Position numbers and translations under genes: made by a program | Shown: one piece after another, positions 17,777 through 64,000 of the stretch | Layout of the letters: each line of letters starts with the position of its first letter | Numbering within the stretch: the first letter of the stretch is position 1 | Assembly: GCF_000970025.1 (NCBI RefSeq) | Contig: NZ_CP009528.1 | Coordinates: forward strand, 620,001-684,000 | Direction of reading: 5' to 3' | From: Methanosarcina barkeri MS | GTDB lineage: Archaea; Halobacteriota; Methanosarcinia; Methanosarcinales; Methanosarcinaceae | Length of the DNA stretch: 64,000 nt | Notes under the pieces: generated by a model | Seen by the model: only the letters and a program-made list of their open reading frames with translations | Databases searched by the model: none | What the model was told of the DNA's origin: nothing

Positions 17777-18322
17777 TTACCTTTTGATGCTTACCAGTAA
17801 TCTTTTTTTCGTTACGGGCACCAGCTTTTTCCACTCTACGACGGCATCTTCGTAGAACTCATATTCGTCTACAGTTTTATCCGATAATTTGCCATCCACT
17901 TCATATACATAAAATCCATCTTCTCCATCCGTAGAGACGACCTTGACTCTGTTCCCCATTTTCTTAACTTCTACTGCAGCCACGCTTTTCAGAGCCTCAA
18001 GCAGAGTAGTACCCTGTTCAACCTCAAGTCTCTTGTTTTCTGCAAAGTGGTCCAGAAATGAATATATATTGTTCAGTTTGATGCCTATCATATGAGTATT
18101 TCCGAACTTTTTTCTTTCTACAAGGTTGGCTTTTTCTAATATTTTTACATGTTTGGCCGCCACAGGCACAGAAATCCCTATTTTTCTTGCCAGGCCGGAT
18201 ATGTGCATATCTCCTTCACTCAGGTGTTCTAGAATTGAGAGGCGTGTGTCGCTTGAAATAGCTTTAAAAAGATTTTCTCTGCCGCCGTTCATTCCATAAC
18301 TCTGCATAGCATTTACTACCAT
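17777..18322 (-). CDS. ArsR-type regulator with DUF4430-like C-terminal domain
   Basis: A 181-residue regulator. Residues about 15-95 form an ArsR-type winged helix (FKAISSDTRLSILEHLSEGDMHISGLARKIGI ... HVKILEKANLVERKK), without obvious metal-binding Cys. Residues about 100-181 resemble DUF4430, the transcobalamin-C-terminal-like fold: GTTLLEALK, then DGFYVYEVDGKLSDKTVDEY, then EDAVVEWKKL. This part is a pattern-level match, not proven. The gene is divergent from the DUF2162-ExbB-DUF2149 operon and is its likely regulator. If the C-terminal domain binds a corrinoid or other tetrapyrrole, the protein would sense the cargo of that system. ATGs at codons 6 and 11 are other possible starts. Confidence 0.8.
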   Translation of the reverse strand: MVVNAMQSYGMNGGRENLFKAISSDTRLSILEHLSEGDMHISGLARKIGISVPVAAKHVKILEKANLVERKKFGNTHMIGIKLNNIYSFLDHFAENKRLEVEQGTTLLEALKSVAAVEVKKMGNRVKVVSTDGEDGFYVYEVDGKLSDKTVDEYEFYEDAVVEWKKLVPVTKKRLLVSIKR

Positions 18323-18705: not shown

Positions 18706-18749
18706 TTATCCAAAAAGATAACAATTATTACCCAAAAACCAGTTTTTAT
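18706..18749 (+). promoter_or_regulatory. Tandem TTAnCCAAAAA operator of the membrane operon
   Basis: Two boxes, TTATCCAAAAA (18706-18716) and TTACCCAAAAA (18728-18738), lie 22 bases apart start to start, that is two helical turns. Between them is GATAACAATTATTA. The same architecture, with the same 22-base spacing and the shared TAACAATTATTA core, occurs upstream of the CobN-like gene at 22998-23040. The position, 32 bases before the ATG, overlaps the expected promoter, suggesting repression or activation by one regulator. Confidence 0.6.
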
Positions 18750-18780
18750 TTAATTTTACTATAGATGCTCAGAAGGTATT

Positions 18781-19473
18781 ATGGATTCTGCGGCATTAAC
18801 TGTGATTGGAATTTTGATAGGTATCCTTGTTTTTGGAATTAAATCTGGAATAGGATGCGGATTTTCAAACATAAGTACAAGAGAAATTTTTGCAGTTGGA
18901 GGTAGTTATTTTCTTCTGGCCCTTTTATTCGGAAGCATTACTGACCACACAAACTTGGACGCTTTTGAAAAGTTTTCTTCAATGGGCATGGGAATCCATG
19001 TATTTGTTTCCCTGCTTCTGATAGTAACCGGGATTTACACCCAGAAAAAATGGAATTTAGGAAAAGATGTTTCTAGGCACACTTTCCTTGCTATATCCAT
19101 ACCCTGCCCGGTTTGTCTGGCAGCTCTTGCAGTCTCCTGCATACTGCTTTCAGAAAGTCTTAACCTTCCCGGGATAAAAGTAGGGCTACTTGTTGGAGTT
19201 GCTTTTTTTATAGCAGTAGTGGCTTCTTCTTTTCTTTTCAGGTTTGGAAAGGTCCGGTTTGGAAAAACCCCTGAAACTATGGGCAGTGCAATGATGATGA
19301 TAGGGATTTATTATCTCTTAGGAGCTCTGCTTATCCCTGCTTATATACAAACAAAAAAGATGAACCTTGTTTCAACCGGAGGAGGAGAAACAGGAATTAT
19401 GCCTCTTATGGCTTTTGGAGTTATTATCCTTGCAGGTTTTTTCCTGGAACGTATAAGGAGGCATGATCTTTGA
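18781..19473 (+). CDS. DUF2162 multi-helix membrane protein (HmuT-like position)
   Basis: A 230-residue integral membrane protein with about six hydrophobic helices, matching the DUF2162 family of putative transporters. A conserved-looking SIPCPVCLAALAVSC segment near residues 105-120 places Cys residues at the start of a membrane helix. It is the first gene of a three-gene operon; its TGA overlaps the TTG of the ExbB-like gene (TTGA). Families with DUF2162, ExbB/TolQ, DUF2149 and a CobN-like protein recur together, and from memory they occupy the hmuT-U-V-S places of Bacteroidota haem-uptake loci. A role in energised tetrapyrrole or metal uptake is inferred from this grouping. Confidence 0.8.
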   Translation: MDSAALTVIGILIGILVFGIKSGIGCGFSNISTREIFAVGGSYFLLALLFGSITDHTNLDAFEKFSSMGMGIHVFVSLLLIVTGIYTQKKWNLGKDVSRHTFLAISIPCPVCLAALAVSCILLSESLNLPGIKVGLLVGVAFFIAVVASSFLFRFGKVRFGKTPETMGSAMMMIGIYYLLGALLIPAYIQTKKMNLVSTGGGETGIMPLMAFGVIILAGFFLERIRRHDL

Positions 19474-20093
19474 GCCTTATGAATTTATTATCCAATATGA
19501 TGAATGTCTTCTCAACGGCTTTGTTAATTCCTGTAATGTTTCTTCTCACTATTCTCGTATTTGTTTCCTTGATTCAATTAGGAGAATTCCTTTCCGAATA
19601 TACAAAAAGGCGTAGAGACTGGAATAATCTGGAAACTAACTGCAAAAAAATTGAGTGCGAGCTTCAGAATTCAGATTTTTCGGAAGCATCCAGGGCTCTT
19701 GAAAACATCAAACAAAATTACATGGTCACTTCTTTTGCGCGAGATGCTGCAAAATACCTGAAAGAGCGACATTTTCTTGCTATTGAAAGGCTTTCGCAGG
19801 AATATGAAATCAAGATGGCAAAGCGTCTTGAACATACAAAGATAACCTCGACTATCGGTCCCATGCTTGGCCTTATGGGGACGCTTATTCCATTAGGTCC
19901 TGCTCTGATAGGGCTTTCGAAAGGAGAACTCGAAACTCTTGCGCAAAACCTGATGATTGCCTTTGCAACAACGGTTGTAGGGCTTTTTGCGGCTGGAATA
20001 GGCTACGTACTTACACAGGTCAGACGGCGCTGGTACTGGGAAGATATGTCGGATATCGATTATATCCTGGATACAATTGAGGAAAAGAACTGA
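19470..20093 (+). CDS. MotA/TolQ/ExbB proton-channel family protein
   Basis: A 207-residue ExbB/TolQ-like protein with three membrane helices: an N-terminal one (residues about 10-37), and a pair near residues 130-155 and 160-190. The hallmark TolQ/ExbB segment is present as KITSTIGPMLGLMGTLIPLGPAL, followed by AFATTVVGLFAAGIGYVL. ExbB proteins form a pentamer around a partner helix and use the proton gradient to do mechanical work. Start is TTG with AAGGAGG eight bases upstream and a 4-base overlap with the previous stop. In an archaeon without outer membrane or TonB the driven partner must differ, and the DUF2149 protein is the candidate ExbD equivalent. Confidence 0.93.
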   Translation: MSLMNLLSNMMNVFSTALLIPVMFLLTILVFVSLIQLGEFLSEYTKRRRDWNNLETNCKKIECELQNSDFSEASRALENIKQNYMVTSFARDAAKYLKERHFLAIERLSQEYEIKMAKRLEHTKITSTIGPMLGLMGTLIPLGPALIGLSKGELETLAQNLMIAFATTVVGLFAAGIGYVLTQVRRRWYWEDMSDIDYILDTIEEKN

Positions 20094-20126
20094 AGCTTAG
20101 TATCTCTTAGTAATGAGGAAGAAATC

Positions 20127-20573
20127 ATGCGAAAATCCAGAAGATACAGGCGGGCAGGGCTTTTAAAAGACGAAGATGAGCAAAACCCGATGGTCAACGT
20201 TGCAAATGTTTTTGATGTTGCAATGGTCTTTTCCGTAGCTTTGTTGGTTGCGCTTGTTATGTCATATCACCTCCCTGAACTTCTAAGCTCCAGTGAGGAT
20301 TTCACTATTGTCAAAAATCCAGGAGCTCAAGATATGAAGATCGTCATCAAAGAAGAAGGTAAACCCATTGAAGTAATGAACATGACCGATAACATAGGAG
20401 GGGGAACTGGAGAAGCTCTTGGAACGGCTTACAGGCTCGCCGACGGCAAGGTAATCTACGTACCTGATAGTAATGGTACATCTTCTTCATCAGGTGCATC
20501 TACATCATCAGGTACTTCTTCGTCGGGTACGTCTGCATCATCCCGTACAATTAAAGTATCTACTTCACAGTAA
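20127..20573 (+). CDS. DUF2149 protein, single-pass (ExbD-like partner)
   Basis: A 148-residue protein with one membrane helix at about residues 28-50 (VFDVAMVFSVALLVALVMSY). A small domain follows that contains MKIVIKEEGKPIEV and GGGTGEALGTAYRLADGKVIYVP. The topology (short charged N-terminus NPMVNVANVFD, helix, outside domain) and its place directly after the ExbB-like gene argue for an ExbD/TolR-like role. The last 30 residues are a Ser/Thr/Gly low-complexity tail (SSSGASTSSGTSSSG), probably outside the cell and possibly glycosylated. GAGG precedes the ATG. DUF2149 is of unknown biochemical function; the partner role is inferred. Confidence 0.82.
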   Translation: MRKSRRYRRAGLLKDEDEQNPMVNVANVFDVAMVFSVALLVALVMSYHLPELLSSSEDFTIVKNPGAQDMKIVIKEEGKPIEVMNMTDNIGGGTGEALGTAYRLADGKVIYVPDSNGTSSSSGASTSSGTSSSGTSASSRTIKVSTSQ

Positions 20574-20595
20574 TAATTTCAATAAAATAAATATT

Positions 20596-20726
20596 GAGCT
20601 TGTTTCAAAATCCTGACTATTCAGATTTTTGACCAAAAACTGGTATTTCATTTAGCTCTATTGATTCTGGTTTTATACTCCAATGAATTGTTTCGGAGGG
20701 ATTGGAGATAGTTTTGAAACAAGCTC
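20596..20726. mobile_element. 131-bp MITE-like inverted-repeat element
   Basis: A perfect 15-base terminal inverted repeat, GAGCTTGTTTCAAAA at 20596-20610 and its complement at 20712-20726, bounds 101 bases without a gene. It begins 22 bases after the DUF2149 gene. No clear target duplication could be seen. In RNA it would also fold into a long hairpin, so it may serve as operon terminator. The rest of the gap, to 21031, is AT-rich and shows nothing else. Confidence 0.55.
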
Positions 20727-21031
20727 GTTTATTTTTTAAATATAATAAACAATAAGCATTGCGTTTTTTCTTCATACTTATTGTCAAAGTATTAACTTTA
20801 ATACCTAATGAAAAATAATAAAAACTTAATGAAAAATTAGAAAAACAAATAAGAAAAACAGAAACAAAGTTTACTCTTTCCGTGTCCAGACGCGGCATGT
20901 AAATTTTATGATGTTTACGGACAAAGAAGTATTGAGCAAATGGCACATACAAATATATTTGCTTTCTGCTAAGAGTTATTAGCTCTCCCGATAAGGATAT
21001 TCTTTAATAGTAGGGGATTAAACTTATAGCC

Positions 21032-21826
21032 ATGACAGTTCTGGGCATAGTTGGCTGCAGAATATTTGAGGATGAAATTACCCATGTGCTTGCAAACGAT
21101 TCTTATATAGACAGGATATACATCATAGAAAACGAAGAAAACAAAGGTCTTCTGCACAAACTTGAAGCTGAAGGATGTAAACCAGTGTTCCTTCCCTTTT
21201 ACAAAATCAAAGCAGACCTGAGATGTAGTAATAAATTTAGCGTTATTGTCCAGCTTCAGGGGATGGGGCTTCATGTAGATCCTGCCCGGCTTAAAAATGA
21301 AACGTATACAAACGTTGATATTATGTCCAGAAGTGTGGACGGAATTCTACTTTTTTACGGCTCCTGCGGGCAGGCACTTTCCAGGATACAAAGAAATTTT
21401 GCTCATACGAGATGCCCTATAAAATCGCTGCAGGACAGGGACACAGATGAATCAATGAAACCCATTGAAGACTGCATTGCAGCAGCTCTCGGAGGTAACT
21501 CTCATTATCAGGAAATCCTGAAAAGTCACAGTGATACCTTTTTTTTAACTCCTATGTGGGCTGTAAACTGGAAGACCGCATTCAGAGTTGGTGATAAATT
21601 ACTTCTGGGCTTTGAATTTTCTCCTGAATATCTTAGAGAACTTGGTTACCGAAAAGTTGCCCGGGTTAACACAAAACTGTCTTATGAATCGGATTTTGAA
21701 AAAAAAGTTGAAGAATTTGCACATGACTTCGGTTTCGAGGTCATAGAACTGGAAGGAAACACTGAAATAGCGCAAAAATCGTATAACCATATGCGAAACA
21801 TGCTTCTCAGGCCGCTTAAGGTCTGA
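21032..21826 (+). CDS. DUF1638 domain protein
   Basis: A 264-residue soluble protein of the DUF1638 family. Visible conserved-looking parts are the N-terminal LGIVGCRIFEDEI, GILLFYGSCGQAL near residue 110, and RCPIKSLQDRDTDESMKPIEDCIAAALGG near residues 129-157, with several Cys that could bind a metal. DUF1638 genes occur in methanogens, sometimes near corrinoid or methyl-transfer genes, but the function is not known to me. It lies between the ExbB-type operon and the CobN-like gene, separated from both by several hundred bases, so it may be a separate unit or a cytosolic partner of the system. Confidence 0.78.
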   Translation: MTVLGIVGCRIFEDEITHVLANDSYIDRIYIIENEENKGLLHKLEAEGCKPVFLPFYKIKADLRCSNKFSVIVQLQGMGLHVDPARLKNETYTNVDIMSRSVDGILLFYGSCGQALSRIQRNFAHTRCPIKSLQDRDTDESMKPIEDCIAAALGGNSHYQEILKSHSDTFFLTPMWAVNWKTAFRVGDKLLLGFEFSPEYLRELGYRKVARVNTKLSYESDFEKKVEEFAHDFGFEVIELEGNTEIAQKSYNHMRNMLLRPLKV

Positions 21827-22335
21827 ATATATTGTTTATCTTGAAGGCATTTTCAAGTTATTGAAATATTCCCGTTATTGTGTTAATTTCAAGGTGACCA
21901 GCTTTAATTTAAAAACTATATGAAATTCTTCGTATTTTCCCAACGGTAGAACTTTTTTCGTCTTCAGTTACAGGACTATTTTTCAAGAAGAATATCACAT
22001 CTCCAAAATATTAAAAAGCCGTCATTTTTTTAGCTTATATATTTTCAGCTTACATATTTTTTAGGTTACATGATAGTTATTGGGTGACTCTTTAACTTGT
22101 GTAAAATCAGCCTATTGATGTTAATTTCAATATAATTGATAAGTGCAAGTATCAAACATTGAAAAGAGGAATCAATTCCCTCCAATTAAAGAAAATCAAT
22201 TTAAAAACATTTCTCCATTGAATTTTAAGACATGTTTATAGCCGAAAGTTAAGGGTCGAATTCGTCTTTTAGGTACTTGAGATACTTAACTATAAAAATA
22301 CGACAAAATAAAAAATTGAGTAGATATTTTAAGAC
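21827..22335. other. Intergenic region, no gene seen
   Basis: AT-rich sequence downstream of the DUF1638 gene. No open frame, repeat or strong hairpin was recognised before the repeat cluster starting near 22336. Confidence 0.4.
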
Positions 22336-22511
22336 AAATTACTCCCGGAAGACTGCAGTTTTAAGGAGGATATAAAATGGCAAATTACTCCTGGACTGCA
22401 GTTTAGAGAGACTAAAAATAGCAAATTACTCCCGGAAGACTGCAGCTTTAAGGAGGATATAAAATGGCAAATTACTCCTGGAAAACCACAGATTTACGGA
22501 GGTTTATAATG
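22336..22511 (+). repeat. Repeat cluster carrying ribosome-binding sites and starts
   Basis: Variants of AAATTACTCCCGGAAGACTG occur at about 22337, 22382, 22431 and 22468. Two are followed by the same AAGGAGGATATAAAATGGC block (22363-22381 and 22450-22468), and a third related block GGAGGTTTATAATGGC ends near 22512. The arrangement duplicates a translation start together with its ribosome-binding site. The AAATTAC core also resembles the dispersed repeat at 22774 and 60240. Confidence 0.7.
22377..22406 (+). CDS. Possible 9-residue leader peptide
   Basis: ATG with a near-ideal AAGGAGG ribosome-binding site opens a frame encoding MANYSWTAV, ending in TAG. It is repeated with variation 87 bases downstream. 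Whether it is translated is unknown. If TAG were read as pyrrolysine, only two more codons would follow. Confidence 0.3.
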   Translation: MANYSWTAV

Positions 22512-22577
22512 GCGTTTCATAAGACAAATCAAGTAAATCTGATTTGTCTATTAATAAAATTACATCTATATATATAA
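22464..22577 (+). CDS. Possible 37-residue small protein
   Basis: Begins with the same AAGGAGG ribosome-binding site and the same MANYSW start as the 9-residue frame upstream, then continues as KTTDLRRFIMAF and a hydrophobic end (LICLLIKLHLYI). A second start with GGAGG lies in frame at codon 16. No homologue is recognised. It may be a small membrane peptide, a leader, or a gene start left by a decayed element. Confidence 0.3.
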   Translation: MANYSWKTTDLRRFIMAFHKTNQVNLICLLIKLHLYI

Positions 22578-22773
22578 ACATTTCGTAGTTCTATGACATT
22601 ACCACATTTAATAAAAAAGAACAATACAAGTTAAAGTGAAAAAAGATATTATATAAAAATATTAATATAATACAAAAAAGAAAAGATGCTTAGAAAATAA
22701 GCAATTTCATTTATTGCAAAGTTATCCAATATGTTCAATTATGATAATTTTATAAGAGTTTCGCTGATTTATG

Positions 22774-22830
22774 GGCGGAAGAATAATGTCTCTTCGCTAT
22801 TTTGAGTGGGTAATTTACATTTAAGTTCTA
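22774..22830 (-). repeat. Dispersed repeat with ACCCACTCAAAATAGCGAAG-type core
   Basis: On the minus strand the sequence AAATTACCCACTC, then AAAATAGCGAAGA, closely matches 60240-60285 (plus strand) and more loosely 60410-60440. In one frame each encodes KLPTxNSEE. It is probably an end piece of a mobile element scattered in intergenic DNA. The flanking bases 22578-22773 and 22831-22997 hold no gene. Confidence 0.55.
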
Positions 22831-22997
22831 AATCTGACCTAACACATATACATGTGAAAAGATTCTCGTATAAATCACATTCAATATAGAGGATTATCTG
22901 GTTTATGTAGTTGTTTTTCAACTGAAAAAGTATCTTCAACCCTACAAAATAGAGAGAAATCATAGTATATTACGTAAAAACACCATCGAATCCGTTT

Positions 22998-23040
22998 TTA
23001 CCCAAATAACTAACAATTATTAGCCAAAAACTGTGTTTTA
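22998..23040 (+). promoter_or_regulatory. Tandem TTAnCCAAAwA operator of the CobN-like gene
   Basis: Boxes TTACCCAAATA (22998-23008) and TTAGCCAAAAA (23020-23030), 22 bases apart start to start, with CTAACAATTATT between them and GTGTTTTA after. This mirrors 18706-18749 in box sequence, spacing and order. It lies about 260 bases before the CobN-like start, so a leader transcript is likely. The leader (23041-23297) has no clear structure I could identify. Confidence 0.6.
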
Positions 23041-23297
23041 TGTATCTTATTCCCTAATGCTCCGAGTGTTGAATCTATCGTACAGAGTGGCTACTCATTG
23101 GATTTAGGAAGTTCTGTATTTTAATTACGTGTTAAAATCAAGAGCTTCCGGGTTCATTTTTGATGTCTAATAGCAGTTTCTGTATCATTTTTCAGATTCA
23201 TACTCTTTGATAATAAAATCACTCTGTGGGCCAAGCATCCTGATTATTTTTCTCACTGGGTGCTCCAGGGTTCATGATACATTGTTCTGGGGATAAG

Positions 23298-26200
23298 ATG
23301 CGTACGGCACAAGGTAGATTATTGGTTTTATGTGCAGTGGTCCTTTTACTGCTAGCACAGAACGTATCGGCTGATGAAAACCATGTAAATATTACTTTTA
23401 TCTGTTATGATGGGAGTGCCCTTGCTGCAGCAGAGCAGTCCAATCCATATAATGCAAGTATAAATGTAACATATATTTCGGGGTATTCCGATTTTAGCAA
23501 TGTCACTTTTGAAAACCAGGATGTAATATTTACTTATATGCTCTGGTCGCAGTTCAAAGATATCGGAGACGACCTTGAAAGTGCTCACGAAAACGGGACT
23601 GCACTCATAGATATTACTTCTGCAATAGATACAACATACATTAATACCTCAAGTTACGATAAGATTTTTTCCGGGACTACCCCCTATAATTCTACTGAAG
23701 AAAAATTCTTCTATAATATGGGTTCTAGAGGAGTTCTGAAGAAAAACACTGAGAACTTCCTTATATATCTCGCAAAAACTTATGGAGATAAACCCGAGCT
23801 TACGAAAGACTGGGTTTATGAAGATCCTATAGAATTCCCTGAAGCAGCTATTTATCATCCGGATGCTCGTTCTTCTACTAACGAATCTCAGCCAGACTGG
23901 TTTGAAAATACTACTGATTACCTTGAATGGTACTCTAACTCAACTAACTCAAATTCAACTAACTCAAATGAATCACGGCATATTTACGACAAGAGCAGAC
24001 CCACTATAGGGATATGGTTCCATGCTTCCGATTATACCGGTGACAACCTTGAAGTCATAGATGCTCTTATCCGTGATCTGGAAGGAAAAGGATGCAACGT
24101 TATTGCAGGTTTTGATACTTTTAACGATATTCATAAGTTTTACTTTGACGAAAATGGAGAATCTCTTGTCCAGTGCGTAATTTCTCTTAAGAGTTTCCGT
24201 TTGAATTATGATGATCCTGATAAAGGTGTACAGGAGCTTGAAGACCTTGACGTTCCTGTCCTCACGGGATTGGTTGTTACAAATCCTGCTAATTCGACTG
24301 ACATAGCTGATAGTAATAGAGGTATCCCCAGTGAAGAGGTTGTATACAAAACTCTGCTCCCGAGCATTGATGGGATTTTCGAGTACATTGTAATAGGAAT
24401 TGATAATTATGATTCCGCAACAGGTGAAAGCAACTATGAACCTCTGCCTTCTCAGATTGACTGGATGGTAAATAGGTCGATTAATTGGGCAAACCTGAAG
24501 TTAGAGGAAAACGAAGACAAGAAAGTAGCTGTGATTTACTATAATTATCCTTCAGGAAAGGATAATATTGTAGCAAATTATCTCAACTCCACCCAGAGCA
24601 TGTTTGAACTTCTTAATGCAATGAATAAAAGTGGCTATGAGGTCTCCGGAATCCCGGAAAACAGTAGTAAGCTCATGGAGATGCTTCAAGCACAGGGCAT
24701 CAATGTTGGTTCCTGGGCTCCTGGAGTTCTGAATGGAATGGTGGAAAACAGGACTGAGTGGGGCCTTCAACTCATACCTATGGATACCTATAAAGAGTGG
24801 TTTGAGTCTGAAATTCCCGAAAATCTGAGAGCCAATGTAACAGCTGAATGGGGAGAACCCTGGTCCGAAGATCTGCCTCAAAATAAGAGTGTTATGATCT
24901 ATGAGAATGAAACCGGTAAATACATTGTAATTCCAACGGTGCGTTTCGGAAATGTCTGGCTCATGCCTCAGCCTGCCAGAGGTACAGGACAAAATAATGA
25001 CACCCTTTACCACAGCAACGTTGTACCTCCCACACATCAGTACATAGCTTTCTATCTCTGGCTAAACCATGAATTCCAGCCTGATGCTCTTATTCATATG
25101 GGCACTCACGGTACGCACGAATGGCTCCCGGGCCCCACTTACGGCATGAACCGGACTTCAGACTGGTCTCCTCTCCTGCTGCAGGATATTCCGAATATCT
25201 ATCCCTATATTGTTGCCAACGTGGGAGAAGGAATAACTGCGGAGTACAGGGGTAATGCTCTAATTATTGACCATTTGACTCCAACCCTTGAACGCGGTGG
25301 GCTTTATGGAGATTTGCTAAACCTTTCAACTGATGTGGAGGAGTATTATGACCCCGGGATTTCTTCTCAGACAAGAGCAGGATATCAGAAGGCCATAGTA
25401 AATGAGATAATATCACTCAACCTCAGTGTTGATCTGGGAATAGAAAATGTAACCGCTCTTCAAGACTACAATGAAACGGAGTTTGGAAATTTCATTAAAA
25501 ACACTCTTCATGAATACCTGGAAGACGTAGGAAATGAAAATATCCCATACGGTATGCATATCCTCAGCCATGTTCCTACAACGAATATGACATATCCTGA
25601 AAGTGATGAACTTACCGGAATGGTAAGGGCTATGCTTGGAGGAAGCTTTGAGGATAATATCACTGCTGCTTTCTACCCTGAATCTTCGTATCCTCTCGGA
25701 ATTCCGTTAAACGATACAAAAGTTACCAAACTTGTCTGGGAAGTTGTAACCAATAATACAAGCGTTTCTCAGGCGCAGACTGCAGTTTATGGGAAAACTA
25801 ACAGCACAGTTGCACTTGATCTTGAACAGGGGCTGGATTATAAAGACAGGCTTCTTAACTGCGATGTGGAGATTGACAGAATTCTTTCAGCTCTGAACGG
25901 AGGATTTATTCCACCAGGCTCAGGGCTGGACCCTATAATGAATCCAGATGCAGTACCTACAGGGCGCAACTATTACAGCATAAATTCGAAGCTCTATCCT
26001 TCAGAAGCAACCTGGGAAGTTGGAAAGTCTCTTGCAATCCAGATGCTTGAGGACTATTACAATGAACACGGGGAATACCCTAAAAAAGTTTCATTCTCAA
26101 GGTTCGGGGTGGAGTTTATTGCGGACCACGGGACTCTGGAAGCCGAAGTGCTCTACCTGCTTGGAGTAAAACCTGTATGGGACGAGTACGGGTATGTAAC

Positions 26201-27626
26201 CGGAGTTGAAGCTATCCCTGAAGATGAACTATTGCCAAATTATGATACTTCAAAGCCTGGAAGGCCGCGTATTGATATCGTCTATACTACCGCAGGTATG
26301 AGGGATGCTTTCCCGGATAAGATCAAAATGATAGACAGTGCTGTGAAGCTTGCAAGCTCTCTTCCTGGCGTAAACTATCAAAACTATGTAAATCAGAGCT
26401 CTCTTACACTCTACGATTCCCTAATATCTGAAGGGTATGACAACGAGACTGCAACAAAACTCTCTACAATGCGCTGCTTTGCAGTAATGGACGGTACTTA
26501 TGATATAGGGGTCTCAGATGCTATCAGTGCAAGCGGGTCATGGGATAATGAAGAAGATATTGCAAACGTATACCTGGACAAGATGGGATACGCTTACGGA
26601 GAAGATTTCTGGGGAATACAGTCCAGAGCACTCCTCGAAGGCAACCTGAAAAACGTTGAAGCGTCAGTACATTCGTCCTCTTCAAATCTTTATGACTCCC
26701 TTGATAACGATGACCTTTTCCAGTACTTCGGCGGCATGAACCTGGCAACTAGGTATCTTAGCGGCAATACTCCGGAGATGTATATTTCGGACACAAGTAA
26801 CTCGGATGGGGCTCAGATGTTGGGAATGCAAGAGTATCTCAGCAAGGACTTGCGGGCCAGATATTTCAACGACAAATGGATTGAAGGAATGAAAAACTCC
26901 GGATACTCAGGCGGCAGCATGATGTCCGAATTTGTGGACAACCTCTTTGGATGGGAGGTAAGTGACCCTGACCTTGTGGACGATACAGTCTGGCAAGAAG
27001 TGTATGAAACCTATGTAAATGATCCTTCTATGAAAGAATGGTTCAAGCAGAATAATCCCAGTGCTTACCAGTCTGTAACAGCGAGAATGCTTGAGGCAGT
27101 CAGGCACGATTACTGGGCACCCTCAGATGATGTTATCGAAAGCCTTGCAAAGGAATATGAGGAGTCTGTGGCCGAGAATGGGGCTTCGTGTTGTCACCAT
27201 ACCTGTGGAAATCCCCTGCTTCATGAGTTTGTAAGTGGAAAGGTATCTGTTCCGGGCTACTCCGAGCAAATAGAAGCTGCAACTAAAGCCGAAACTCTGG
27301 AGACCACAGAAGAGACCCAGAGTAGTAGCAGTGGTAGTCATCACGATCATAATACTGGAAACGCTACCGTAGTACCAAAAGCCAGTTCATCCAGTAACCA
27401 GACGTCTCAAGAGTCGGACGGAGGATATGGTACAGATACTTCTGAACCTGATCCTGGAGTTCAGAAATCCTCAGATACTGATTATGTTGAAGGGTATGAG
27501 ATGCAGAAAGATTCTGCTGAAGAACCTGAGAATAGTGGTTTCTCATTTTCAGGATCTGATGTTATCGGAATTCTCTTTGTAGTGGTAGTCGCGGGTGGAA
27601 TTTACCTGGGTATGAGAAAGAGATAA
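23298..27626 (+). CDS. Secreted, membrane-anchored CobN-like (HmuS-like) chelatase-family protein
   Basis: A 1442-residue protein. From the ATG at 23298 (GGGGAT upstream) it opens with a clean signal peptide (hydrophobic VLCAVVLLLLA, cleavage near VSA-DE). An ATG 24 bases upstream is in frame but poorly placed. The body is the class-I chelatase large-subunit fold of CobN/ChlH, with HMGTHGTHEWLPG near residue 600. CobN usually has a Lys after LPG where this has Pro. Many NxS/T sequons fit an extracellular location. Near residue 1297 is CCHHTCGNPLLHEF, then a Ser-rich linker with SHHDHN, and a C-terminal membrane helix (VIGILFVVVVAGGIYLG) with a basic end. Cytosolic CobN enzymes insert cobalt and have no such anchor. 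HmuS-type relatives remove iron from haem. It is probably a tetrapyrrole-handling enzyme on the outer face of the membrane; the substrate is unknown. Confidence 0.85.
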   Translation: MRTAQGRLLVLCAVVLLLLAQNVSADENHVNITFICYDGSALAAAEQSNPYNASINVTYISGYSDFSNVTFENQDVIFTYMLWSQFKDIGDDLESAHENGTALIDITSAIDTTYINTSSYDKIFSGTTPYNSTEEKFFYNMGSRGVLKKNTENFLIYLAKTYGDKPELTKDWVYEDPIEFPEAAIYHPDARSSTNESQPDWFENTTDYLEWYSNSTNSNSTNSNESRHIYDKSRPTIGIWFHASDYTGDNLEVIDALIRDLEGKGCNVIAGFDTFNDIHKFYFDENGESLVQCVISLKSFRLNYDDPDKGVQELEDLDVPVLTGLVVTNPANSTDIADSNRGIPSEEVVYKTLLPSIDGIFEYIVIGIDNYDSATGESNYEPLPSQIDWMVNRSINWANLKLEENEDKKVAVIYYNYPSGKDNIVANYLNSTQSMFELLNAMNKSGYEVSGIPENSSKLMEMLQAQGINVGSWAPGVLNGMVENRTEWGLQLIPMDTYKEWFESEIPENLRANVTAEWGEPWSEDLPQNKSVMIYENETGKYIVIPTVRFGNVWLMPQPARGTGQNNDTLYHSNVVPPTHQYIAFYLWLNHEFQPDALIHMGTHGTHEWLPGPTYGMNRTSDWSPLLLQDIPNIYPYIVANVGEGITAEYRGNALIIDHLTPTLERGGLYGDLLNLSTDVEEYYDPGISSQTRAGYQKAIVNEIISLNLSVDLGIENVTALQDYNETEFGNFIKNTLHEYLEDVGNENIPYGMHILSHVPTTNMTYPESDELTGMVRAMLGGSFEDNITAAFYPESSYPLGIPLNDTKVTKLVWEVVTNNTSVSQAQTAVYGKTNSTVALDLEQGLDYKDRLLNCDVEIDRILSALNGGFIPPGSGLDPIMNPDAVPTGRNYYSINSKLYPSEATWEVGKSLAIQMLEDYYNEHGEYPKKVSFSRFGVEFIADHGTLEAEVLYLLGVKPVWDEYGYVTGVEAIPEDELLPNYDTSKPGRPRIDIVYTTAGMRDAFPDKIKMIDSAVKLASSLPGVNYQNYVNQSSLTLYDSLISEGYDNETATKLSTMRCFAVMDGTYDIGVSDAISASGSWDNEEDIANVYLDKMGYAYGEDFWGIQSRALLEGNLKNVEASVHSSSSNLYDSLDNDDLFQYFGGMNLATRYLSGNTPEMYISDTSNSDGAQMLGMQEYLSKDLRARYFNDKWIEGMKNSGYSGGSMMSEFVDNLFGWEVSDPDLVDDTVWQEVYETYVNDPSMKEWFKQNNPSAYQSVTARMLEAVRHDYWAPSDDVIESLAKEYEESVAENGASCCHHTCGNPLLHEFVSGKVSVPGYSEQIEAATKAETLETTEETQSSSSGSHHDHNTGNATVVPKASSSSNQTSQESDGGYGTDTSEPDPGVQKSSDTDYVEGYEMQKDSAEEPENSGFSFSGSDVIGILFVVVVAGGIYLGMRKR

Positions 27627-62892: not shown

Positions 62893-64000
62893 TCATTTTT
62901 TTCCGATGACCGCATAATCCTGTGCTCCGTATAAAGTGTTGTTTAACATATTGACGTTTTGATTATAAGTTTCAAACAGGACTTTCTCTCTGTCTTTTAG
63001 GTCATCAAAGTCCGGCAACTTCTTTAATCTCATACTGTCTGGAACGGGAGAAATAAATTTCGTCTCAATTTCGCGGAAATTAACTGCACTTAATAAAAAC
63101 TTGAGTGTTTCGGGATGTACTGGTTTTATATGAGTAAAATCAATATAAAAATTGGTAAAAGAAAAGAATGATAGAGGATTTACAGTCTCTACTATTAAAT
63201 AAAAACCATACTTAAGCTTCTTGTTGCAAAGGTTTAACATTTTGATAAGATAATTAGGAGCCAGATGTTCAACTACCTGACTGATGAAAATTCCATCCAG
63301 GCTTTTGTCTTCCATAGTTTGAAGAGTTTCAATTGCATCCTTTAACTCTACATTAAAACCTTTTGATTTGCAGAAACTAATCATATCTTCATCGATATCT
63401 ATTCCCTTCGCAACGATATCGTTCTGTCTGGCTAGTTCCAGAAATTCCCCTCTTCCACAACCGATATCCAACACATTTTTACAATCCTTGAAGTAATCTA
63501 AAAATGCTTTTTGATGCTGTTGAATGTGATCCCTTGAGCCTCTGAACTGTTCTTCAAATGCGTAATAATTTATTTCAGATTCATTGTTTTCAGATTCATT
63601 GTTTTCAGGTTTCTGTACCTTATGATTCTGCAAGTTTTTTTTTAAGCTGTTCTCAAGCACACTGTTAAGCCAGATTTTGTTATTCAGATCCAAATCAATT
63701 GCAGAAATAACGCTATTAACTTCAGATTTGATATTTTGGGAAGAATTTACTTTTAAATGCTCAAGCTCGGTTTTTAAATATCCTGCATCTGTTTTTAAAG
63801 ATTTAACATCAATTTTTAAACTTTTTGCATCGATATTTAGGCGTTCAAAATCAGTGTTCAAATTTCCGACATCAGTTTTTAAATCTTTAACCACATCTGT
63901 AACGCCAAAATTAAATTTTCTTTGTTTTTGGAAAACTGGATCAACATATCTCTGGACCTCTCCATGGACCATTTTTCTTCCTTCTACAAGAAACTTTCCT
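62893..64000 (-). CDS. Methyltransferase of glycan locus, copy 2 (partial)
   Basis: The C-terminal 368 residues or so of a protein whose start lies beyond the right edge; the frame is open to the last base (GKFLVEGRK precedes MVHGEVQRYVDPVFQKQ). The visible part has a coiled coil with repeated SLKTDAG-like heptads (residues about 25-75 of the visible part), then a methyltransferase domain (NVLDIGCGRGEFLELARQ, GIDIDEDMISFCKSKGF, DGIFISQVVEHLAPNYL) and the conserved end NTLYGAQDYAVIGKK. It is paralogous to the 3' third of 56443-59718, but without the NASGKANTQ repeat. First gene of copy 2 of the locus. Confidence 0.9.
   Translation of the reverse strand, partial: GKFLVEGRKMVHGEVQRYVDPVFQKQRKFNFGVTDVVKDLKTDVGNLNTDFERLNIDAKSLKIDVKSLKTDAGYLKTELEHLKVNSSQNIKSEVNSVISAIDLDLNNKIWLNSVLENSLKKNLQNHKVQKPENNESENNESEINYYAFEEQFRGSRDHIQQHQKAFLDYFKDCKNVLDIGCGRGEFLELARQNDIVAKGIDIDEDMISFCKSKGFNVELKDAIETLQTMEDKSLDGIFISQVVEHLAPNYLIKMLNLCNKKLKYGFYLIVETVNPLSFFSFTNFYIDFTHIKPVHPETLKFLLSAVNFREIETKFISPVPDSMRLKKLPDFDDLKDREKVLFETYNQNVNMLNNTLYGAQDYAVIGKK

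Follow-up and report, generated by a model that had tools for sequence, protein, structure and literature searches.

A three-half-site promoter element of Methanosarcina barkeri MS points to a probable cobalt/corrinoid regulon shared by a CobN-like gene and an ExbB-type operon

Genes and promoters at the locus

The window analyzed here is a stretch of 64,000 nucleotides from Methanosarcina barkeri MS (contig NZ_CP009528.1, positions 620,001 to 684,000), and positions are given within it unless a genome coordinate is indicated. It presents two promoters with the same short element, which we describe as a predicted operator. The first heads a plus-strand operon of three genes. They encode a DUF2162 predicted membrane transporter (18781-19473; PF09930, E 1.4e-67), a MotA/TolQ/ExbB-type proton-channel protein (19470-20093; PF01618, E 3e-11) and a DUF2149 protein (20127-20573; PF09919, E 9.7e-33). 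A search for bacterial DUF2162 homologs on plasmids found none. The second element precedes a plus-strand gene for a CobN-like chelatase-family protein (23298-27626; PF02514, 1025 bits) with a signal-like N-terminus and a C-terminal membrane segment. Its start is placed at 23298 by the conserved ATGCGTACG start; the open reading frame (ORF) list gives 23274. Divergently from the DUF2162 operon, the minus strand encodes an ArsR-type winged-helix protein with a C-terminal DUF4430-like (transcobalamin/SLBB-type) domain at 17777-18322. This protein is the candidate regulator.

Architecture of the element

A first-pass annotation had described each site as two boxes. Both box pairs, their 22-bp offset and the shared TAACAATTATTA are all seen in the sequence. 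The direct 22-bp pair is real, but a better reading combines an outer half-site in direct orientation with an inverted pair. Compared with its orthologs, the 28-bp element reads as TTAnCC-N4-GGnTAA-N6-TTAnCC, with three half-sites. Operator 1 (18706-18733, plus strand) consists of TTATCC (18706-18711), inverted aGATAA (18716-18721) and TTACCC (18728-18733), and its A-tract runs to 18738. Operator 2 (22998-23025, plus strand) consists of TTACCC (22998-23003), inverted aaCTAA (23008-23013) and TTAGCC (23020-23025), with an A-tract to 23030. Aligned, they are TTATCC-AAAA-aGATAA-CAATTA-TTACCC and TTACCC-AAAT-aaCTAA-CAATTA-TTAGCC. Half-sites 1 and 3 form the direct repeat of the first description. 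The inverted half-site 2 and half-site 3 form an 18-bp palindrome, GGnTAA-N6-TTAnCC (18716-18733; 23008-23025). With three half-sites in place of two direct boxes, the earlier suggestion of two bound dimers or a single tetramer becomes tentative.

The palindrome has the features of an ArsR/SmtB-type operator. It is imperfect, has a TnAA-N6-TTnA core and lies at a promoter, 12 bp upstream of the TATA box. The operators of CzrA and SmtB, also winged-helix proteins of the ArsR family, have the consensus TGAA-N6-TTCA and the same spacing. In contrast to them, the system described here presents GGnTAA/TTAnCC half-sites, a third outer half-site, a regulator with an extra C-terminal domain, and targets for uptake, not efflux.

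The sequences flanking the boxes had been considered otherwise unrelated. This is not entirely so: both promoters carry the same signals at identical distances from half-site 3. Counted from its last base, a TATA-like octamer begins at 12 bp (TTTATTTA, 18745-18752; TTTATGTA, 23037-23044) and a conserved ATGCTC at 32 bp (18765-18770; 23057-23062). The plus-strand core promoters thus span 18745-18770 and 23037-23062; in the first, ATGCTC falls near the expected transcript start. Both start sites are predictions.

Occurrence and conservation of the element

The two sites are beyond chance. Even when up to three mismatches are allowed, the window holds just two matches to the two-box pattern; shuffled windows lead to an expectation of 0.15. 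Only one shuffled window in 100 reached two matches. Across the whole 4.57-Mb genome, these sites are the only exact two-box matches. The full motif is therefore rare, and not a frequent feature of AT-rich intergenic DNA. With up to three mismatches, the genome-wide counts of the two-box pattern were at or below those of the reversed-pattern control, so that only strong matches are meaningful.

The element is also conserved upstream of orthologous genes, as the first-pass annotation had expected. It is present at all 20 DUF2162 promoters of Methanosarcina, 42-43 bp from the ATG. There, the mean identity of the three half-sites is 0.87, 0.89 and 0.98, versus 0.69 and 0.73 in the spacers and 0.52-0.61 in the upstream DNA; the 42 bases downstream of the operator reach 0.94. 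The promoters of Methanosarcina cobN orthologs carry it in nearly all cases, about 265 bp before the start (mostly 263-287 bp, with a few outliers). In four related genomes of the sister genus g11 the half-sites are perfect, with TTTT or TTCT spacers after box 1. It means that the A-tract after this box is not essential.

Three Methanosarcina genomes of the set (G011, G016 and G017) lack DUF2162, the ArsR gene and the CobN orthologs, and no good site was found in them. Their best score is 16.3 bits, versus 28.9-36 bits at orthologous promoters of other genomes. Regulator gene, targets and sites are thus absent together. In some relatives, at L147, L149 and L372, a CobN-like gene lies directly 3' of DUF2149. 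The proposed tie between the CobN-like gene and the membrane operon gains support from the arrangement at L147 and L149.

Genes behind further sites

We built a motif profile from 35 sites and scored only 150 preliminary candidates per genome. In M. barkeri MS, the strong matches are both window sites and one at a cobN remnant adjoining cbiMNQO. Weaker matches lie upstream of a 1559-aa CobN paralog, between BtuFCD-like and Nik/Opp-like transporter genes, and upstream of a NosD gene followed by a secreted B12-binding-domain protein (PF02310, E 2.1e-22). Most of the best-scoring matches in eight additional genomes point toward the NosD/B12-binding pair, toward genes of the CobN family or toward the DUF2162 operon.

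The most independent evidence for a cobalt/corrinoid regulon comes from G034 and G035, whose genera are outside the profile training. G034 has sites at two cbiMNQO clusters, one of them arranged as ArsR-cbiMNQO. In G035, sites occur at DUF2162-ExbB-DUF2149, at SBP5-methyltransferase-NikB, at a CbiM gene and at BtuFCD. The first-pass annotation had thought of metal limitation; the gene content of the wider regulon favors cobalt/corrinoids over metals at large.

Three additional observations concern site-bearing regions. At L013:7158-7811 (genome contig G000:C2, about 1421160-1421810), a shortened CobN-like ORF of 217 aa with full operator and leader adjoins cbiMNQO. Its counterpart in G004 is intact (1509 aa), so the short ORF looks like a decayed copy. 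A recurrent class of sites, missed by the profile, lies between two secreted HEAT-repeat genes in several Methanosarcina genomes (here L014:5787-5819, G000:C2:63786-63818). Finally, islands rich in operators occur at L144/L145 (G003:C1:2014000-2054000) and L139, where secreted DUF4430+FIMAH proteins and NosD/PKD surface proteins surround the CobN paralogs.

The candidate regulator

The ArsR-type protein at 17777-18322 shows a winged helix above the cut-off (HTH_5, PF01022, E 4.6e-9). The best solved relatives of its helix-turn-helix profile include CzrA, SmtB and NmtR. In its family, H40 and H58 are invariant and H77 is nearly invariant. The C-terminal assignment is clearer in the orthologs of G028, G005 and G027, which pass the DUF4430 cut-off with 24.3-25.0 bits. 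Profile searches of the PDB with this domain and with secreted DUF4430 domains gave no informative match. The divergent ArsR-DUF2162 adjacency is found throughout Methanosarcina and in g2, g4, g9 and g11, and ArsR paralogs adjoin cbiMNQO and BtuFCD in G034 and G035. The first-pass annotation had already named this protein, and the conserved adjacency, the co-absence and the domain content strengthen it as the candidate.

Transcobalamins have DUF4430 as their C-terminal domain (PMC4350170). Burroughs et al. (2007) described in Methanosarcina a fusion of an ArsR-like winged helix with an SLBB domain of the transcobalamin clade (DUF4430-type), predicted to respond to B12, its precursors or another soluble ligand; the passages on this fusion name no operator or target gene (PMC1796856). 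Their protein gi 72395507 is apparently an ortholog of the one at 17777-18322. The type of regulator was thus predicted in 2007, and what we propose, from sequence comparison, is the operator and the cobalt/corrinoid regulon. We found no description of this specific operator, its regulon or its link to a CobN-ExbB system in the searchable literature. The operator supplies candidate targets and a ligand class for a regulator family that was predicted to be B12-responsive without targets. In 2003, Rodionov et al. reportedly predicted a CBL-box in some archaea, a DNA signal for a hypothetical B12 regulator, which may overlap with the element presented here.

Interpretation and alternatives

A single transcription factor probably uses both sites as operators; the best candidate is the ArsR-type/DUF4430 protein, which would control a regulon for cobalt/corrinoid acquisition. 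That this protein binds the sites seems quite likely. A corrinoid is the leading candidate for the ligand, at about even odds, ahead of cobalt or nickel. Somewhat more tentatively, the system may salvage corrinoid, or its cobalt, outside the cell.

The mechanism would be as follows. The ArsR-type/DUF4430 protein would act as a one-component regulator and place a winged-helix dimer on the 18-bp palindrome, and further protein on the outer half-site 22 bp upstream would add affinity or cooperativity. The bound complex would lie immediately upstream of the B recognition element (BRE) and TATA box. This position fits an activator or a repressor blocking TFB. The C-terminal beta-grasp domain, of the transcobalamin type, would sense corrinoid or cobalt status. 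The regulator would then adjust the DUF2162-ExbB-DUF2149 operon, the surface CobN-like chelatases, the secreted B12-binding protein, and the CbiMNQO, BtuFCD-like and Nik/Opp-like ATP-binding cassette (ABC) transporters. A more specific version is speculative: a B12-sensing ArsR-transcobalamin-domain regulator and a three-half-site operator might control a surface machine, an extracellular CobN-like chelatase energized by an ExbB-type complex, that strips cobalt from environmental corrinoids, or imports them. It would be an archaeal equivalent of HmuSTUV that handles corrinoid instead of heme.

Several results weigh against a corrinoid regulon under this regulator. The palindrome alone is not specific as a genome-wide motif (121 matches at one mismatch versus 145 in the control). 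Residues 104-165 of the protein itself match DUF4430 only marginally (E 0.0018, 19.1-20.0 bits, below the 23.8 cut-off), and this domain showed no significant similarity to secreted DUF4430 domains from the genus in a profile-profile comparison. The ArsR gene lies 384 bp from operator 1, which leaves autoregulation uncertain. Matches in the two main promoter classes are not independent, since these classes supplied the training sites of the profile. In genera such as g3 and g5, no strong sites were found and the ArsR relatives adjoin unrelated genes. The site class at 63786 lies 735 bp before the nearer HEAT-repeat start and has no visible cobalt link.

A first alternative keeps the operator and the regulon, but the ligand would be a metal ion, either cobalt or nickel, sensed in the ArsR fold as in CzrA or NmtR, or by another regulator such as NikR. 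It is an unlikely reading, yet the strongest competitor. The CbiM-type and Nik/Opp-type transporters among the targets would suit it, as would the metal-sensing relatives and the conserved histidines. However, the DUF4430-like domain is conserved and would be superfluous in a CzrA-type sensor, and BtuFCD-like uptake is among the targets, as is a secreted protein with a B12-binding domain. For NikR, the geometry also does not resemble its inverted repeat (half-sites about 22 bp apart): the 22-bp pair is direct here, and the inverted pairs are 10 and 12 bp apart.

A second alternative, to which we give a low probability, is an iron/heme regulon. Like HmuS, the CobN-like protein would remove the iron of heme, and the operator would respond to iron or heme. 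HmuS is a CobN-like heme de-chelatase encoded in an operon with the putative permease HmuT, the ExbB-like HmuU and HmuV (PMC12583661, PMC13227078). Moreover, in proteomics of M. barkeri MS, two CobN-like proteins rise together with the iron/sulfur source, and reuse of heme iron was proposed (PMC10846266). Nevertheless, the partners found here are a cobalt-type CbiMNQO, a B12-binding protein and a transcobalamin-type regulator, and no heme-specific gene lies among the neighbors examined.

The controlled system resembles HmuSTUV of Bacteroidota. There, a CobN-like protein and an ExbB-like channel occur together with a putative permease and one further small protein (PMC13227078), and in the present case the CobN-like gene is linked with ExbB-like and membrane-protein genes. 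Unlike it, the system here is archaeal and without HmuY/HmuR, its CobN-like gene is separate in this window and tied by the operator, and the regulon suggests cobalt/corrinoids. For the CobN-like pair of M. barkeri MS, the published reading was salvage of heme iron, with the remainder of the operon missing (PMC10846266). The two proteins may be those of the genes at genome positions 643298 and about 2134000, both with the site. Recent papers call the role of archaeal HmuS/CobN homologs unclear. Our analysis adds that ExbB/permease genes are present in M. barkeri and share a control element with the CobN-like gene. Each step is accessible to experiment in a methanogen that is genetically tractable and relies heavily on corrinoid enzymes for its metabolism.

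Finally, it is very improbable that no regulator exists and that the sites are alike through joint promoter duplication or AT-rich promoter constraint: the shared TATA and ATGCTC offsets make a copied promoter conceivable, and some spread along cobN paralogs is clearly duplication (the remnant adjoining cbiMNQO), but the half-sites are kept while spacers and upstream DNA drift, the motif stands before unrelated genes in other genera, and genomes without the ArsR gene lack it.

Leader and repeat elements

The 5' leader of cobN (window 23045-23297, about 235 nt) presents a conserved hairpin, GGCAyCC...GGGGTGCC, which ends about 35 nt before the ATG. Compensatory changes occur at its base pair 229/261, where 6 of the 18 sequences have A-U instead of G-C. 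No known RNA element was found in the region, and the hairpin has no Rfam match. A second control of cobN at the RNA level is possible.

Upstream of operator 2, the window contains short imperfect tandem repeats between 22330 and 22510, GCAAATTACTCC(C/T)GGAAGACTGCAG..TTTAAGGAGGATATAAAATGGC, possibly decayed copies of a leader or of a small ORF.

Arrays of 22-bp tandem repeats in G003, G025 and G027 fit the two-box pattern and were set aside for their different core. The array at G003:C1:2285957-2286078 consists of TTATCCAAATAtAGTATACTGT repeats with a perfect ACAGTATACTGT-like palindrome and represents, as in the other two genomes, a different operator-like array.

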